Shown: piece after piece, positions 20,948 through 42,986 of the stretch
Layout: each line of letters begins with the position of its first letter
Position numbering within the stretch: the stretch's first letter is position 1
Origin: Halogranum gelatinilyticum
GTDB taxonomy: Archaea; Halobacteriota; Halobacteria; Halobacteriales; Haloferacaceae
Assembly: GCF_900103715.1 (NCBI RefSeq)
Contig: NZ_FNHL01000002.1
Span: 806,001 to 870,000, forward strand
Reading direction: 5' to 3'
DNA length: 64,000 nt
Made by a program: the position numbers and the translations under genes
Notes under the pieces: model-generated
What the model was told of the DNA's origin: nothing
Seen by the model: the letters and a program-made list of their open reading frames with translations, nothing else
Databases searched by the model: none

Positions 20948-21169
20948 TCACAACAGGCCGGGGACGAACATCGACACGAGAAGCAGGATGCCGACGATGA
21001 CGGCCGCGATGGTGACGAGTCGCCACGCCACGCGGAGCACGAGCCGACCGATCAGGACGACCGCGCCGATGCCGACGATGACGACGAGCAGCTGGCCGAG
21101 CGGCGAGTCGAGTAGCCCACCGAGCTGTAGGATGGGGACGAGCATGCTCACGAGTGCGGGGTCGAACAT
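20948..21169 (-). CDS. Small two-to-three-helix membrane protein
   Basis: 73 residues, nearly all hydrophobic: FDPALVSMLVPILQLGGLLD, then GQLLVVIVGIGAVVLIGRLV and a third segment VTIAAVIVGILLLVSMF. It is convergent with trpG and divergent from the nrdJ leader region. No family recognised; composition and codon positions look like a real gene. Confidence 0.65.
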   Translation of the reverse strand: MFDPALVSMLVPILQLGGLLDSPLGQLLVVIVGIGAVVLIGRLVLRVAWRLVTIAAVIVGILLLVSMFVPGLL

Positions 21170-21245
21170 ACCTCACAGAAGTCCCACCGAGGAGATAAGT
21201 CTGTGGGCAGATGGGGTTCACTTTCCCGCAGTTTTGATGGATGTC

Positions 21246-21392
21246 ATACCCACTGCACGGCTAGTAACGAGCGAAGCGACTCCGCCGCGCTCCGGGCGCG
21301 ACAAGTTGCCTATCCACTGCTTTGTTCAAGTGGATTTGTGGTAGCACAAGTAAAAACGCGCAAACCCGCACCGTTTATGAGGGTGGCTCAGC
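21246..21392 (+). repeat. nrdJ-type leader, first copy (direct repeat A)
   Basis: About 145 bases that recur before nrdJ. Shared stretches include CCCACTGCACGGCTAGTAAC, CGAGCGAAGCGACT, a CCACTGCTTTGT..AAGTG stem, GTAGCACAAGTA and a long identical block around 21359-21385 containing TTTATGA, a TATA-like element. Weaker similarity extends back to about 21191. It ends at the ATG of a small ORF, as does copy B. Confidence 0.85.
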
Positions 21393-21500
21393 ATGAGTAT
21401 TTCGACGCAAGCCCAGACAGAACAACCGGGTACACCGGTTTTGGAAGCTGGTCCTCCGGTTGTTCCATCCGGCAGTGGCGACTCTGTCTCTGCCATCTGA
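21393..21500 (+). CDS. Small ORF (35 aa) after leader copy A
   Basis: Begins MSISTQAQTEQPGTPVLEAG and ends in a Ser/Gly stretch. It starts at the same point relative to the repeated leader as the small ORF before nrdJ. A second trace of its middle (GTPVLEA, from GGCACACCGGTTTTGGAAGC) is found near 21694 without a start. Whether it is translated is uncertain, since a TATA-like element lies only about 15 bases before its ATG. Function unknown. Confidence 0.4.
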   Translation: MSISTQAQTEQPGTPVLEAGPPVVPSGSGDSVSAI

Positions 21501-21522
21501 GGTCTTGCTCAGGAGGTGAGAA

Positions 21523-21636
21523 ATGGATCTTAATATCGAAATCAAGCACATCACTATCACCGTGAAAATGCGAATCGCGGTCGCGACGGCGGTTGCTATC
21601 GCGCTCGTGACAGTGGTGGCTCAAGCCGCTCTGTAG
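21523..21636 (+). CDS. Small single-pass membrane protein (37 aa) with strong ribosome binding site
   Basis: Begins MDLNIEIKHITITVKM, then a membrane helix RIAVATAVAIALVTVVAQAA to the C-terminus. A near-perfect Shine-Dalgarno AGGAGGTGA (21511-21519) is three bases before the ATG, unusual in this window where many genes look leaderless. It is 22 bases after the previous small ORF, suggesting a two-gene transcript from leader copy A. No homologue recognised. Confidence 0.6.
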   Translation: MDLNIEIKHITITVKMRIAVATAVAIALVTVVAQAAL

Positions 21637-21898
21637 CGGTATAACCACCGCTAGAAGTATCAAAGTCGAGTGTGTCCAACCTATCAGACGGCCGGGCACA
21701 CCGGTTTTGGAAGCAGTCATTGGTCAACAGCGTGCGGTCTTAAAGGTAGCGTTGGTGAACCATTTGGAGCAATGCATTGAGAACACCAGTTTAGGAGACG
21801 GTACCGAGTACACCTGAGAGTGTAGGTGTGAGTATGGACCCACCAGAGAGAAATCTGTAGGCAGACGCGTCCACTTTCGCTGGCACGGACGACACTTT

Positions 21899-21937
21899 GG
21901 GTCGAGAGACGAGGTGCGGTAACACGGTCTCTCGTCC
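21899..21937. terminator. Hairpin between the two leader copies
   Basis: GGG-t-CGAGAGAC (21899-21910) pairs with GTCTCTCG-t-CCC (21927-21937) around a 16-base loop, with one T-T mismatch. No T tract follows. It may end the small-ORF transcript or be part of the leader of nrdJ. Confidence 0.4.
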
Positions 21938-21977
21938 CGAAGTCGAAAATCACTTTCACCCCGGTCTAAATACTATT

Positions 21978-22128
21978 ATACCCACTGCACGGCTAGTAAC
22001 GAGCGAAGCGACTGCGCCCCCACGCTCCGGCCGCGAGAAAACTGCCGAGCCACTGCTTTGTCCAAGTGAGTTTGTAGTAGCACAAGTAGACACGCGCAAA
22101 CCCGCACCGTTTATGAGGGTGGCTTCGT
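21978..22128 (+). repeat. nrdJ leader, second copy (direct repeat B)
   Basis: Same sequence blocks as copy A in the same order, with substitutions and short indels; the last 27 or so bases including CCCGCACCGTTTATGAGGGT are identical. It includes the probable nrdJ promoter. With TTTATGA (22110-22116) as TATA box, transcription would start near 22140, just before the ATG at 22147. Confidence 0.85.
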
Positions 22129-22221
22129 ATGAGTATCCCGTTACAAATGAGCGCAGAGCAGACCACAGCAGACTACGGAATCCGACGGTATACGGGGCGT
22201 ACCGGCGAGGAGGAGCAGTAG
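22129..22221 (+). CDS. Small ORF (30 aa, or 24 from an inner ATG) directly before nrdJ
   Basis: Begins MSIPLQMSAEQTTADYGIRR and ends in GEEEQ, its TAG touching the nrdJ ATG. The inner ATG at 22147 suits a leaderless transcript from the TATA element in the repeat. The end of the ORF (GGCGAGGAGGAG) is at the same time the Shine-Dalgarno of nrdJ, so translation of the small ORF could control nrdJ, as an upstream ORF would. Not conserved in sequence with the ORF after copy A beyond the first residues. Confidence 0.45.
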   Translation: MSIPLQMSAEQTTADYGIRRYTGRTGEEEQ

Positions 22222-25200
22222 ATGAGTAACGCGGACCTCTCTGCGGAAGAACTGGTACTTCCGATCAAACGGACCGACGGGGAGACGCTCGAAGAGCGCA
22301 TGACCGGCAACGCGTACAACAACATCCTGCCGGCGCGCTACCTGCGGAAGAACGCCGACGGCGAACTCGTCGAGACGCAGGAGGACCTGTTCAAGCGCGT
22401 CGCGAAGAACATCGCGCTCGCCGAGGCCGTCTTCGCCGCCGAAGGGCGCGACATCGAGATCACGGTCACCCCCGACCAGCTGAAGCCGGGCCACCCGCGC
22501 CGCGACGAACTCGCCGCGGAGGTCTTCGGCACGGGGACGACCGCCGAGGACGACGCCGAGACGACGCTCTCGGTCTACAACGTCAACAAGTTCGCCTACG
22601 ACACCATCGTCCCGGAACTCCCGGCCGACATCCGCGCGGTCGTCGAGGAGAAGCGCGAGACGTTCCAGGACCTGATGGAGAACCTCTCGTTCATCCCGAA
22701 CTCGCCGACGCTGATGAACGCGGGCGACGAACTCCAGCAGCTCTCGGCCTGTTTCGTCGACTCCCCGGACGACGACATCACGGACATCCACCAGACGGCC
22801 AAGGAAGCCGCAGAGGTCTTCCAGTCCGGCGGTGGGATGGGCTACGCCTTCTGGCGGCTCCGCCCGTACGGTGACGCGGTCGGCTCGACCGGCGGAATCG
22901 CTTCGGGTCCCATCACGTTCATGCGGACGTTCGACCAGATGTGTGAGACCATCGCACAGGGCGGCGCGCGACGCGGTGCCCAGATGGGCGTCATGCGCGT
23001 CAGCCACCCCGACGTCATCCAGTTCATCCACGCGAAGAACAAGGACGTCTCGCTGGCCAACACGCTGCGACTGAACGACCCCGACGACTTCACGCACACG
23101 AAGTTCGCCGACGCGCTCGACGAGGCGCGCGAACTCATCGACGACGAGGGGAAGGTCCCGAAGCATCTCCGTAACGCCGTCGAGGGCCACCTCTCGAACT
23201 TCAACATCTCCGTCGGCGTCACCGACGACTTCATGGAGGCACTCTACAACGACGAGGAGTTCACCTTCACCAACCCGCGGACCGAAGAGCCGCACGTCGC
23301 CACGCCGCAGACGAAGGAGCTCTACGACATGTTCGGTCTCGGCGAGCACGTCGAGGTCGGCGAGGTCCTCTCCATCCCGGCGAAGAAGCTCTGGGACCAG
23401 ATCGTCGACGGTGCCCACGAGAACGGCGAACCGGGCATCATCTACCTCGAGCGTGTCAACAAGCAGCACTCCTTCGACGTCGAGGAGCATCCCGACCACC
23501 GCATCCTCGCGACGAACCCCTGTGGCGAGCAGCCCCTGGAGGAGTACGAGGCGTGTAACCTCGGCCACATCAACCTCTCGACGGTCGCCGCCGAGGACGC
23601 CCCCGACTGGCGTGTCTGGTCCGAGGAGCATCTCGACGAGTACGACTCCCACGAGGCGGCCGTCGAGGCCTTCCTCGACGACGCGCTCGACTGGGACGAG
23701 TTCGACCACCGCATCGAGAACGGGACGCGCTTCCTCGAGAACGTCGTCACGATGTCGGACTTCCCGGTCCCCGAAATCGAAGAGAAGGTGCGGGACATGC
23801 GGAAGATCGGTCTCGGCATCATGGGACTGGCCCAGCTCTACATCCAGCTCGGCATCCGCTACGGTTCGGACGCGGGTAACGAGGTCGCAGAGCAGGTCAT
23901 GACCCACATCAACTACGGCTCGAAGTGGGCCTCCCACGAACTGGCCGAGGAGCGCGGCCCGTTCAACGACTGGGACGACTCGAAGTACGCGAACCCGACC
24001 GAGTACCGCGAGTGGTTCGAGCACTACACCGGTCTCGACGCCGACGAGTGGGAAGACGGCTTCACCGTCCGCAACCACAACACGACCACCATCGCCCCGA
24101 CGGGCACGACCTCGATGGTCGGCAACACGACGGGTGGCTGTGAGCCCATCTACAACGTCGCCTACTACAAGAACGTCTCCGACGACGTGCAGGGCGACGA
24201 GATGCTCGTCGAGTTCGACGACTACTTCCTCCGTGTCTTGGAGGCCAACGACATCGACGTCGAGGCCGTCAAGCTCGAGGCCCAAGAGCAGATGTCCAAC
24301 AACGAGTTCGACGGCGTCTCCTCGCTGCCGTCGGTTCCGGACGCCATCGGCGAGCTGTTCGTCGTCACCTCGGACCTGAGCGGCATCGACCACGCGGCGG
24401 TCCAGTGTGCCTGCCAGCAGGGCGTCGACTCCGCCATCTCGAAGACCTGTAACTTCCCGAACTCCGCGACGAAGGAGGACATGGACGAGGTCTACCGCTA
24501 CATCTACGACAACGGCGGCAAGGGCGTCACCGTCTACCGCGACGGGACCCGCTCGAAGCAGGTCCTGACGACGCGTGCGAAGAACGCCGAGTTCTCCGAC
24601 GACGCCGAAGCAGCCGAGACGCTCGTCGGCCAGATTCAGGAGGTCTTCGGCGGTCTCGAAGGCTTCCTCGACAACGAGGAGGTCCGCGCCGCGCTCGGCG
24701 AGGAGTTCAGCCTCGAGGACCGCACCGGTGCGGCATACGCCCAGGAGCGGCCGCGGCCGGACGTGCTCCACGGCGTCACCCAGCGCATCGACACCGGCTA
24801 CGGGAAGATGTACGTCAACATCAACGAGGACGACGAGGGCGAACCGTTCGAGCTGTTCGCCACCATCGGCAACTCCGGTGGCTTCACTAACTCCTTCACC
24901 GAAGCACTCGCGAAGGTCATCAGCTACGCTCTGCGCTCGGGCGTCGACCCCAACGAGATCGCAGGCGACCTGCAGGGCATCCGGAGCCCGAAGGTCGCGT
25001 GGGACAAGGGCGAGCAGATCAACTCCATCCCGGACGCCATCGGCGTCGCCATGCGCCGCTATCTCGACGGCGAGATCGACAAGCCGTATCCGAAACAGCA
25101 GAACCTGACCGAGATCGAGAGCGAGTCCGTGGGCATCGACGCGCCCGAACCGGACGGCGGTGCGACGACGGCACCCGCTCCCGAGGACGACACCTCGGCG

Positions 25201-25341
25201 GCTCCCGGTGTCTCGGACGACGCGACACAGGACCTGCTCGACGCGGGCGAAAGCCCCGAGTGTCCCGAGTGTGGCAACATGACGCTGTACTTCTCGGAAG
25301 GCTGCAAGACGTGTGAGTCCTGTGGCTGGTCCGAGTGCTAA
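22222..25341 (+). CDS. nrdJ: Adenosylcobalamin-dependent ribonucleotide reductase (class II)
   Basis: Makes deoxyribonucleotides with a cobalamin-derived radical, needing no oxygen or small subunit. After an ATP-cone-like N-terminus the barrel shows VFQSGGGMGYAFWRLRP, the thiyl-radical region NPCGEQPLEEYEACNLG (about 431), NTTTIAPTGTTSMV and NFPNSATKEDMDEVY. A TSCPD-type domain follows (ELFATIGNSGGFTNSF near 875), then a linker and a C-terminal zinc ribbon CPECGN..CKTCESCGWSEC (from 1013) with the redox cysteines. 1039 residues; no intein, although this family is a frequent intein host. Confidence 0.95.
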   Translation: MSNADLSAEELVLPIKRTDGETLEERMTGNAYNNILPARYLRKNADGELVETQEDLFKRVAKNIALAEAVFAAEGRDIEITVTPDQLKPGHPRRDELAAEVFGTGTTAEDDAETTLSVYNVNKFAYDTIVPELPADIRAVVEEKRETFQDLMENLSFIPNSPTLMNAGDELQQLSACFVDSPDDDITDIHQTAKEAAEVFQSGGGMGYAFWRLRPYGDAVGSTGGIASGPITFMRTFDQMCETIAQGGARRGAQMGVMRVSHPDVIQFIHAKNKDVSLANTLRLNDPDDFTHTKFADALDEARELIDDEGKVPKHLRNAVEGHLSNFNISVGVTDDFMEALYNDEEFTFTNPRTEEPHVATPQTKELYDMFGLGEHVEVGEVLSIPAKKLWDQIVDGAHENGEPGIIYLERVNKQHSFDVEEHPDHRILATNPCGEQPLEEYEACNLGHINLSTVAAEDAPDWRVWSEEHLDEYDSHEAAVEAFLDDALDWDEFDHRIENGTRFLENVVTMSDFPVPEIEEKVRDMRKIGLGIMGLAQLYIQLGIRYGSDAGNEVAEQVMTHINYGSKWASHELAEERGPFNDWDDSKYANPTEYREWFEHYTGLDADEWEDGFTVRNHNTTTIAPTGTTSMVGNTTGGCEPIYNVAYYKNVSDDVQGDEMLVEFDDYFLRVLEANDIDVEAVKLEAQEQMSNNEFDGVSSLPSVPDAIGELFVVTSDLSGIDHAAVQCACQQGVDSAISKTCNFPNSATKEDMDEVYRYIYDNGGKGVTVYRDGTRSKQVLTTRAKNAEFSDDAEAAETLVGQIQEVFGGLEGFLDNEEVRAALGEEFSLEDRTGAAYAQERPRPDVLHGVTQRIDTGYGKMYVNINEDDEGEPFELFATIGNSGGFTNSFTEALAKVISYALRSGVDPNEIAGDLQGIRSPKVAWDKGEQINSIPDAIGVAMRRYLDGEIDKPYPKQQNLTEIESESVGIDAPEPDGGATTAPAPEDDTSAAPGVSDDATQDLLDAGESPECPECGNMTLYFSEGCKTCESCGWSEC

Positions 25342-41354: not shown

Positions 41355-42986
41355 TTACTTGGTCCGCCGGAGGGCGATGAGGCTGACGAGGAGCAACGCC
41401 ACGATGACAGCTATGACGCCGAACCCCGGCGCGCTGCCGCCGGAGATTCCCCCGGCTTGTGGCCCGTCGTCGTCGACCGTCGTCGCGACGGCTTCGAGCG
41501 ACGAAACCGGTGTCCCCGTGGTCTGTGTCGCCGTCGGCTCGGTCATCGGCACGGCCGTCGCCTCCGAGGTCGGCGAGGGGGTCGGCTCCGGCGTCGGTGG
41601 CTCGCTCACCACCAGTTGGCCGACGACCTCCGTCTCACCCAGTGTGAGATTGTACGTGCCAGCAGTGCCAGCGGCGTAGGTGACCTCGAACTCGGCCGTC
41701 TTACCGGCGGCCACCGTCGCGGTCAGCGTCTCGAGGAGCTCGTCGCCGACGGACAGCGTCTCCTCGTACGTCCCTTTCGCGTCACCCTCGTTTGCGACGA
41801 CGACCAGTACGGTGGTCGTGTCCCCCGGTTCGAGGGCCGCAGCCGTCACGGTCACGTTGCGGACGACGAACGCCGGTTCGGGCGAGTCGGTCGTCTTGGA
41901 GTCACCGCCGCTGCTCCCGCCGCTGCTTCCGCCGCTGCTACCTCCGCCACTGCTACCGCCGCCACCCGAACCGCTTGGCGTCGCGGTTGGTGTCGCGGTC
42001 GGTGTTGCCGTCGGCGTCGCGGTCGGTGTTGCCGTCGGCGTGGGGGTGGCCGTCGGCGTTGCGGTGGGCGTCGCTGTCGGAGTGGCCGTCGGCGTTGGCG
42101 TCGGCGTCGGCGTCACGGTCGGTGTCGCTGTTGGCGTCGCTGTCGGAGTGGCCGTCGGCGTTGGCGTCGGCGTCGGCGTCACGGTCGGTGTCGCTGTTGG
42201 CGTCGCGGTTGGTGTTGCTGTCGGCGTCGGCGTCGGCGTCGCGGTCGGCGTTGGCGTTGGCGTCACGGTCGGCGTTGGCGTCGGCGTCGGGGTTGGCGTC
42301 ACGGTCGGTGTCGGGGTTGGCGTCGGCGTTGGCGTCGGCGTTGGCGTTGGCGTCGGCGTCGGCGTTGGCGTCGGCGTCGGCGTTGGCGTCGGCGTTGGCG
42401 TTGGCGTCGCGGTCGGGGTTGGCGTCGGCGTCGGCGTCACGGTCGGCGTCGGGGTTGGCGTCGGGGTTGGCGTCGGCGTCGGGTCCGCGGCGATACTGAC
42501 TGTGACGCCCTCGAACGCGCTGGGAGCGACGGACTCCCCGCTCGCGCTGGACAGGACCGTGTCGCCCTCGACGAACGCGAGACTGGTCTCTTGGCCGCTC
42601 GTCCCCACCAGTTCGAGCGTCAGTTCGGCGAGCACCGGCCCGTCGACGCCGCCGACCCGCAGCTGATTGAACGTGACCCATCCCGTCTCGTTGTCGATGG
42701 TCTGGACAGGGTCTGCGAAGTCCGCACTCCCGTCGACAGCCGTGACCTGCACGACGCTGGGGTCGAACGTCAGCTTGGCCTGGTAGCCAGCGACGTTTCG
42801 CGCGTCCGTCCAGACCTGGACCGTGACCACGTCGTTCGCCGCCCCCGAGACCGGGGTGCCGTCGCCGACGTGAACCGAGACTGCATCCGAGAACGCGAAG
42901 CCGGGGATGCTCAGGCCGACCGCCGCAGTGAGCAGCACGGCCACGAGTATCGCGGCCTGCAGCCGCGTGCGGGTGGGGGCGGTCAC
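41355..42986 (-). CDS. Surface-anchored cohesin-domain protein with Pro-Thr stalk and PGF-CTERM tail
   Basis: 543 residues. A signal peptide (about 1-32) is followed by a cohesin-type domain (about 33-165; [40 protein letters not shown]). Next is a Pro-Thr stalk of about 170 residues, a Gly/Ser stretch, a CARDB-like beta domain (about 367-458; [20 protein letters not shown]), a second P/T linker, and a C-terminal APGFG motif, membrane helix ([16 protein letters not shown]) and RRTK. That tail is the PGF-CTERM signal processed by archaeosortase A to give lipid attachment. The gene directly upstream, two bases away, ends in a dockerin, so the two proteins are probably bound to each other on the cell surface. 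Confidence 0.87.
41977..42486. repeat. Pro-Thr-coding microsatellite-like array
   Basis: About 510 bases of imperfect GGCGTC/GGTGTT hexamers (read on the plus strand) with higher-order units of 60-66 bases seen repeated near 42040-42200 (the phrase GTCGCTGTCGGAGTGGCCGT occurs twice). It encodes the P/T stalk of the cohesin protein and must be prone to length change. Confidence 0.9.

Follow-up and report, generated by a model that had tools for sequence, protein, structure and literature searches.

Introduction

Haloarchaea possess CreTA, a CRISPR-regulated toxin RNA pair. The locus described here resembles, in its predicted layout, systems in which a small membrane toxin is held silent by an antisense RNA. 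In the par locus of pAD1 (Fst/RNA II), two convergent RNAs cross direct repeats, which lets the antisense RNA base-pair with the toxin mRNA leader (PMC7472228). In the TisB/IstR-1 and DinQ/AgrB systems of E. coli, a damage-responsive promoter is combined with a small membrane toxin, an inhibitory 5' UTR and an antisense RNA (PMC8309996). Our literature search found no archaeal type I toxin-antitoxin system, an absence that carries little weight, as most subscription journals lie outside the coverage of that search; antisense RNAs to type II loci have been described in Halobacterium (PMC6523106).

In Halobacterium, UV light raises nrdJ expression 2-4-fold (PMC1224876, PMC2556686), and the motif TTTCACTTTCA is reported there for radA1 and other UV-induced genes (PMC2556686); in Haloferax, nrdJ is up 2-fold upon HFTV1 infection (PMC12542753). 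A literature search for NrdR-type regulation in haloarchaea found nothing. Short upstream ORFs (uORFs) of 15-31 codons, ahead of normal genes, were found by dRNA-seq in Haloferax volcanii, nrdJ not being listed among them (PMC4983044, Table 2).

Here, we analyse the region upstream of nrdJ in a 64,000-nucleotide stretch of the Halogranum gelatinilyticum genome (hereafter, the window). The reading that we find, on balance, the most probable is that a par/Fst-like, type I toxin-antitoxin-like locus has arisen on a copy of the nrdJ promoter, a promoter that is UV-inducible in Halobacterium. As in par/Fst, there is a small membrane peptide and there are predicted opposed RNAs across direct repeats; unlike par/Fst, which has two repeat pairs (DRa and DRb), the locus has a single pair, the repeats enclose the whole ORF, the promoter is archaeal, there is no clear shared intrinsic terminator, and toxicity is a prediction. 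No homology to Fst/Ldr peptides was found in Pfam or NCBIfam, so we describe the locus as working like Fst/Ldr and do not file it as a member. The predicted trigger and the antisense layout resemble those of TisB/IstR-1 and DinQ/AgrB; here, however, there is no LexA, the promoter is a copy of a ribonucleotide reductase promoter, and induction is extrapolated from nrdJ of Halobacterium. With CreTA it would share a small haloarchaeal toxin gene (a candidate in our case) and an RNA antitoxin, and it differs in having no CRISPR-like repeat beyond chance and in its lineage-specific repeats, 215-317 nt apart. In the search for CRISPR/CreTA-like repeats, which used two haloarchaeal repeats as queries, 48 and 73 of 100 shuffles did as well as the best match.

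The nrdJ leader is present twice

Self-comparison recovered the nrdJ promoter/leader in two copies, in direct order and 732-736 nt apart, in agreement with the original prediction of a leader of about 150 bases occurring twice at a distance of 730 bases. The paired segments are 21218-21286/21950-22018 (81% identity) and 21307-21400/22043-22136 (88%), which as a single alignment span 159 nt at 86.8% identity (E 2e-51), and the homology of copies A/B extends further 5' (CCCACCGAGGAGATAAGTCTGTGGG / CCCACCAGAGAGAAATCTGTAGG). When the 167-nt leader was compared with the whole 3.77-Mb genome, it matched at copies A and B only, with no third. An exact search with the leader core in a collection of genome contigs gave no match, and the Natronococcus and Halococcus leaders, searched for as dispersed elements, matched at nrdJ only, bar one 31-nt match at chance level. 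The positions of all features are given in Table 1.

The closest comparisons are H. amylolyticum and H. rubrum, whose nrdJ genes are 91% and 90% identical to that of the window. Each has a single leader, adjoining a 73-aa minus-strand gene, and no copy A. Both copies in the window carry an insertion, CGCGCAAACC, that these two relatives lack, indicating that the duplication postdates the split or that the copies have been homogenised since. The 73-aa membrane protein, which scores above cut-off in no curated family, is kept beside nrdJ across many haloarchaeal genera; by tblastn on the nrdJ upstream sequences, it lies 382-666 nt from nrdJ in most genomes that have it and 1052 nt away here. As the original prediction requires, the leader is found beyond this strain: both H. 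rubrum and H. amylolyticum have kept it, its architecture is shared across the class, and its duplication recurs in other genera.

Copy A has kept the proximal promoter and, through a 4-nt deletion, lost the start codon of the uORF described below; its transcription start is predicted at about 21403. A match of at least 9/11 to TTTCACTTTCA occurs in 111 of 187 haloarchaeal nrdJ upstream sequences (25 of them exact) and in 3.5% of shuffles, mostly 220-285 nt 5' of nrdJ. What would correspond here to the damage-inducible promoter of TisB/IstR-1 is the copied nrdJ promoter, with a 9/11 UV-like motif in copy A and an induction known from Halobacterium nrdJ. In the window, copy A has a degraded distal element and may respond less strongly to induction.

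Table 1. Positions of the observed and predicted features around nrdJ in the window
Feature	Position	Strand	Remarks
73-aa membrane protein gene	20948..21169	-	in many haloarchaea the gene normally found 5' of nrdJ; marker of the ancestral order
Leader/promoter copy A	21190..21403	+	nrdJ promoter duplicate, now 5' of the 37-aa membrane ORF
Near match to radA1 UV motif TTTCACTTTCA, copy A	21216..21226	+	9/11
TATA box of copy A, TTTATG	21374..21379	+	predicted from the conserved architecture of 125 nrdJ promoters
35-aa ORF, probably not a gene	21393..21500	+	ATG upstream of the predicted start; no transmembrane segment
DR1, CCGGGTACACCGGTTTTGGAAGC	21426..21448	+	in the 5' UTR of the 37-aa ORF; predicted binding site of the antisense RNA
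Shine-Dalgarno AGGAGGTGA of the 37-aa ORF	21511..21519	+	9-nt exact match to AGGAGGTGATC
37-aa small membrane ORF MDLNIEIKHITITVKMRIAVATAVAIALVTVVAQAAL, candidate toxin	21523..21636	+	
Inverted repeat TAGCGG..CCGCTA	21634..21653	.	directly 3' of the 37-aa ORF; putative shared terminator
DR2	21692..21714	-	the antisense RNA (GCUUCCAAAACCGGUGUGCCCGG...) is predicted to begin at the right edge
Minus-strand TATA box TTTAAG	21739..21744	-	centred 27 nt upstream of the DR2 edge; background frequency 0.0024
Leader/promoter copy B	21840..22139	+	native-type nrdJ promoter
AATCACTTTCA, copy B	21948..21958	+	9/11 match to the radA1 UV motif
nrdJ TATA box TTTATG	22110..22115	+	37 nt 5' of the uORF ATG
Conserved nrdJ uORF, MSAEQTTADYGIRRYTGRTGEEEQ	22147..22221	+	24 codons; stop abuts the nrdJ ATG
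nrdJ Shine-Dalgarno AGGAGG	22208..22213	+	inside the uORF
nrdJ, adenosylcobalamin-dependent class II ribonucleotide reductase	22222..25341	+	TIGR02504 NrdJ_Z, 730.8 bits against a cut-off of 400

A conserved upstream ORF is probably coupled to nrdJ

We gathered 187 distinct haloarchaeal sequences upstream of nrdJ, in 126 of which a CGTYAC-type ATG could be assigned automatically, the other 61 being left unscored. The frame set by this ATG is open up to the nrdJ start in 125 of the 126, whereas the two remaining frames are open in 9 and 72; counted by sequence cluster, the figures are 31.8 of 32 against 4.4 and 21.7. The uORF is about 18-26 codons long across haloarchaea and ends at the nrdJ start, its stop overlapping that start (ATGA) in 79 cases and abutting it, or lying within a few bases of it, in nearly all others. 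Halorubrum, which is among the 61, has a 14-codon ORF with the same endpoint. Within the end of the uORF, an anti-Shine-Dalgarno match of at least 5 nt is found for 106 of 125 nrdJ genes (6 of 125 in a control stretch).

A TATA-like hexamer lies 37-38 nt 5' of the uORF ATG in nearly all of the 125. Because of this spacing, we place the start of the uORF in the window at ATG 22147 and not at 22129; ATG 22129 and its counterpart at 21393 sit about 10 nt upstream of the predicted transcription start, which for nrdJ would fall 6-10 nt 5' of the uORF. The 30-aa ORF of the original prediction thus exists and its stop adjoins the nrdJ ATG, with its start moved to give 24 codons. Likewise, of the claim that each leader copy ends at an ATG opening MSI, the shared sequence (ATGAGTAT, common to both copies) stands and MSI as the start of the nrdJ uORF does not. 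The predicted upstream-ORF control of nrdJ, together with the Shine-Dalgarno in the end of the uORF, is supported, and on this comparative evidence we take the conserved uORF to be real.

By eye, the uORF peptides have no motif in common across haloarchaea, which makes coupling by termination and reinitiation likelier than a peptide-specific arrest. The uORFs of long 5' UTRs in Haloferax volcanii are likewise short ORFs ahead of normal genes (PMC4983044); that of nrdJ differs in being class-wide, near-leaderless, and abutting or overlapping the start of its gene. We also observed that NrdJ of many family members (open frames of 1300-3100 aa) contains large insertions near residues 175, 201 and 239, probably inteins, none of which is present in the 1039-aa NrdJ of the window.

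A small membrane ORF lies between direct repeats, next to a predicted convergent promoter

The two small ORFs of 35 and 37 aa that had been noted behind copy A both exist. The 35-aa ORF is unlikely to be a gene: it is hydrophilic, its ATG precedes the point where the transcript is predicted to start, and the start codon of the ancestral uORF has been deleted. The proposed promoter duplication expressing a new small gene pair is therefore reduced to a duplication with one new small gene. The 37-aa ORF offers the small hydrophobic membrane peptide with a Shine-Dalgarno that is typical of type I toxins: its 19-window Kyte-Doolittle maximum is 2.28, and a value of 2.2 is reached by 1.6% of random ORFs of 30-80 aa. 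It has no match in Pfam or NCBIfam, and as an orphan of one genome its coding status rests on the Shine-Dalgarno and hydropathy.

The original prediction had missed a 23-nt direct repeat, DR1/DR2, that brackets the 37-aa ORF, as well as the predicted minus-strand promoter beside DR2. The score of DR1 was reached in 0 of 60 shuffles, and among 99 family genomes the sequence occurs at this locus only. The minus-strand TATA box outside DR2 was spotted by eye before its test; in the control, none of 97 other repeat pairs in an 800-kb sample of the same genome had such a box, and DR1/DR2 is the only pair with one in the window. An RNA starting at the DR2 edge would be complementary to DR1, the sole difference between the repeats becoming a G-U pair. 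Predicted antisense RNAs fold to strong hairpins near the 5' end. For convergent transcription across repeats, another type I trait, the locus offers significant repeats, a convergent promoter predicted at -27 and two predicted transcripts. Together, the repeats and the minus-strand promoter suggest that an antisense RNA controls the 37-aa peptide.

In sequence and fold, the inverted repeat after the stop codon, examined as a shared bidirectional terminator, lacks a T-run. We rejected a 110-aa minus-strand ORF near DR2 (ATG 21720): its ATG is too close to the TATA box for leaderless initiation, and no equivalent ATG exists in Halococcus or at L010, a locus of the Halogeometricum group.

The arrangement recurs in other haloarchaea

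Self-comparison found duplicated nrdJ leaders in three Natronococcus, in two Halococcus species, in genome G050 (locus L237) and in the window, to which a profile search added L010, making 8 of 187 nrdJ upstream sequences in five genera. Halococcus morrhuae shares the layout of the window. In all eight, the uORF start of copy A has been lost or the uORF reduced to four codons. At every duplicated locus, a small ORF with a membrane segment lies between the copies, unrelated in sequence between genera; these ORFs, chosen by eye from few candidates per segment, have 19-window Kyte-Doolittle maxima of 1.99-2.71, and 1.6 is reached by 5% of random ORFs. The Halococcus ORF is found in its two carriers only among 18 family genomes, and that of L237 in its own genome only among 10. 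Between the two Halococcus species, the 77-aa peptide has dN 0.043 and dS 0.159 (dN/dS 0.27), consistent with purifying selection.

Direct repeats of 18-24 nt bracket the small ORF in the window, L010, Halococcus and L237 (0 of 60 shuffles in each case); the repeats of the four lineages are mutually unrelated, as are their peptides. On the minus strand, a TTTAAG box precedes the downstream repeat in the window and in both Halococcus, 26-27 nt from the outer edge of that repeat (background 0.0024). That of L010 is weaker (background 0.084), so that two of the four genera with bracketing repeats have a strong antisense TATA. Comparison of the repeat sequences over the loci indicates that mRNA-antisense pairing would be retained at four of five differing positions: the window and L010 each have one difference, which would give a U-G pair, and in Halococcus two of the three differences would do likewise. 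Not every locus has the antisense part: L237 has no convincing antisense TATA near its downstream repeat, and a shuffle-tested repeat search found no bracketing repeats at the three Natronococcus loci.

Some Natronococcus loci show further rearrangement. In Natronococcus sp. A-GB7, a leader and a small membrane ORF lie at about -1513 to -1100 from nrdJ, beyond the 73-aa gene, so the leader-ORF unit is not always directly beside nrdJ. In N. jeotgali, at about -650 to -425, the small ORF is broken by an in-frame TGA after MNTKSSSDNTDRVYDPRANKNWSW, possibly as a decayed copy or because an alternative start is used. In Natronococcus A-GB1 and N. jeotgali, the distal leader resembles the nrdJ leaders of relatives and the nrdJ-proximal one has diverged; L010 has the same order, with an ancestral-type copy A and a diverged copy B.

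Discussion

In the mechanism that we propose, the nrdJ control region would comprise a UV-motif-like upstream element and a near-leaderless 24-codon uORF, coupled to nrdJ through the internal Shine-Dalgarno at uORF termination. Copy A, lineage-specific and deprived of the uORF start, would drive an mRNA with a structured 5' UTR of about 120 nt and a 37-aa single-span peptide. A convergent antisense RNA from DR2 would pair with DR1 in the mRNA leader and keep the peptide silent. Upon induction of the nrdJ promoter by DNA damage, dNTP demand or perhaps virus infection, the mRNA would out-titrate the antisense RNA and the peptide would be made, probably depolarising the membrane. The locus would thus combine antisense control of the par/Fst type with a trigger like that of TisB. 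We infer the transcripts, their pairing in vivo, the induction and the toxicity from sequence. Overall, the interpretation of the original prediction is partly supported.

The alternative that fares best, which we nevertheless consider unlikely, is that the small ORF encodes a membrane protein that is not toxic and that shares the regulation of nrdJ by way of the copied promoter; any antisense RNA would then be ordinary riboregulation of a stress peptide. Such a protein would fit with promoter copies that drive small membrane ORFs in five genera, with the purifying selection in Halococcus and with the Natronococcus cases that have no repeats. However, the peptides are unrelated between genera and those searched are orphans, a pattern more like that of fast-turnover toxins, and the repeat and antisense geometry would have no role.

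Young ORFs commonly contain hydrophobic segments. A neutral promoter duplication, with the inter-copy segment as functionless junk or a proto-gene and the repeats as remnants of rearrangement, would draw on this, on the orphan status of the 37-aa ORF and on the lack of copy A in H. rubrum and H. amylolyticum. We regard it as improbable, given the identical layout across several lineages, repeats that enclose the ORF and not the leader duplication, the 9-nt Shine-Dalgarno match, the spacing of the antisense TATA and the dN/dS of the Halococcus peptide.

Searches for related sequences bear on a third possibility, the insertion at the nrdJ promoter of a small element, mobile or integrated, that would end at the direct repeats and bring a replacement promoter with it. 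No match was found in plasmids for the window, Halococcus and Natronococcus segments, in phages for the window segment, or in viral contigs for the DR repeat and the Halococcus peptide; the inter-copy segment has no integrase or transposase, and the repeats differ between lineages, that of the window being absent from the 98 other family genomes. An element of this kind seems very improbable, even with an insertion point near the nrdJ start site and with the ancestral leader as copy A, and the diverged one as copy B, in L010 and two Natronococcus. A duplicated riboswitch or structured leader RNA, for instance one responsive to cobalamin, is barely credible: NrdJ uses B12 and the leader is conserved over about 150 nt, but Rfam covariance models gave no relevant match even at E 5, and transcript starts predicted 6-10 nt before the uORF make the conserved block promoter DNA and not RNA.

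Returning to the type I-like reading, it is tempting to generalise that haloarchaea repeatedly build such loci by duplicating the damage-inducible nrdJ promoter, placing a new membrane peptide under the copy and gaining an antisense antitoxin from a short repeat and the convergent promoter beside it; we offer this tentatively, as a real possibility that stops short of being probable. If true, it would amount to a type I system of archaea, triggered much as TisB is and of independent origin in several lineages. Homology-based toxin search tools would miss such orphan peptides; the copied promoter, the bracketing repeat and the antisense TATA offer a signature that can be searched for. The comparison also brings out a class-wide coupled uORF ahead of a gene for ribonucleotide reductase and carries the radA1 UV motif over to nrdJ, tying the supply of dNTPs to DNA damage and to a possible arrest of growth in archaea.

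Elsewhere in the window, positions 41975-42400 hold a long imperfect tandem repeat of GTCGGYGT-type units with a coding-like frame (VGVAVGVA).
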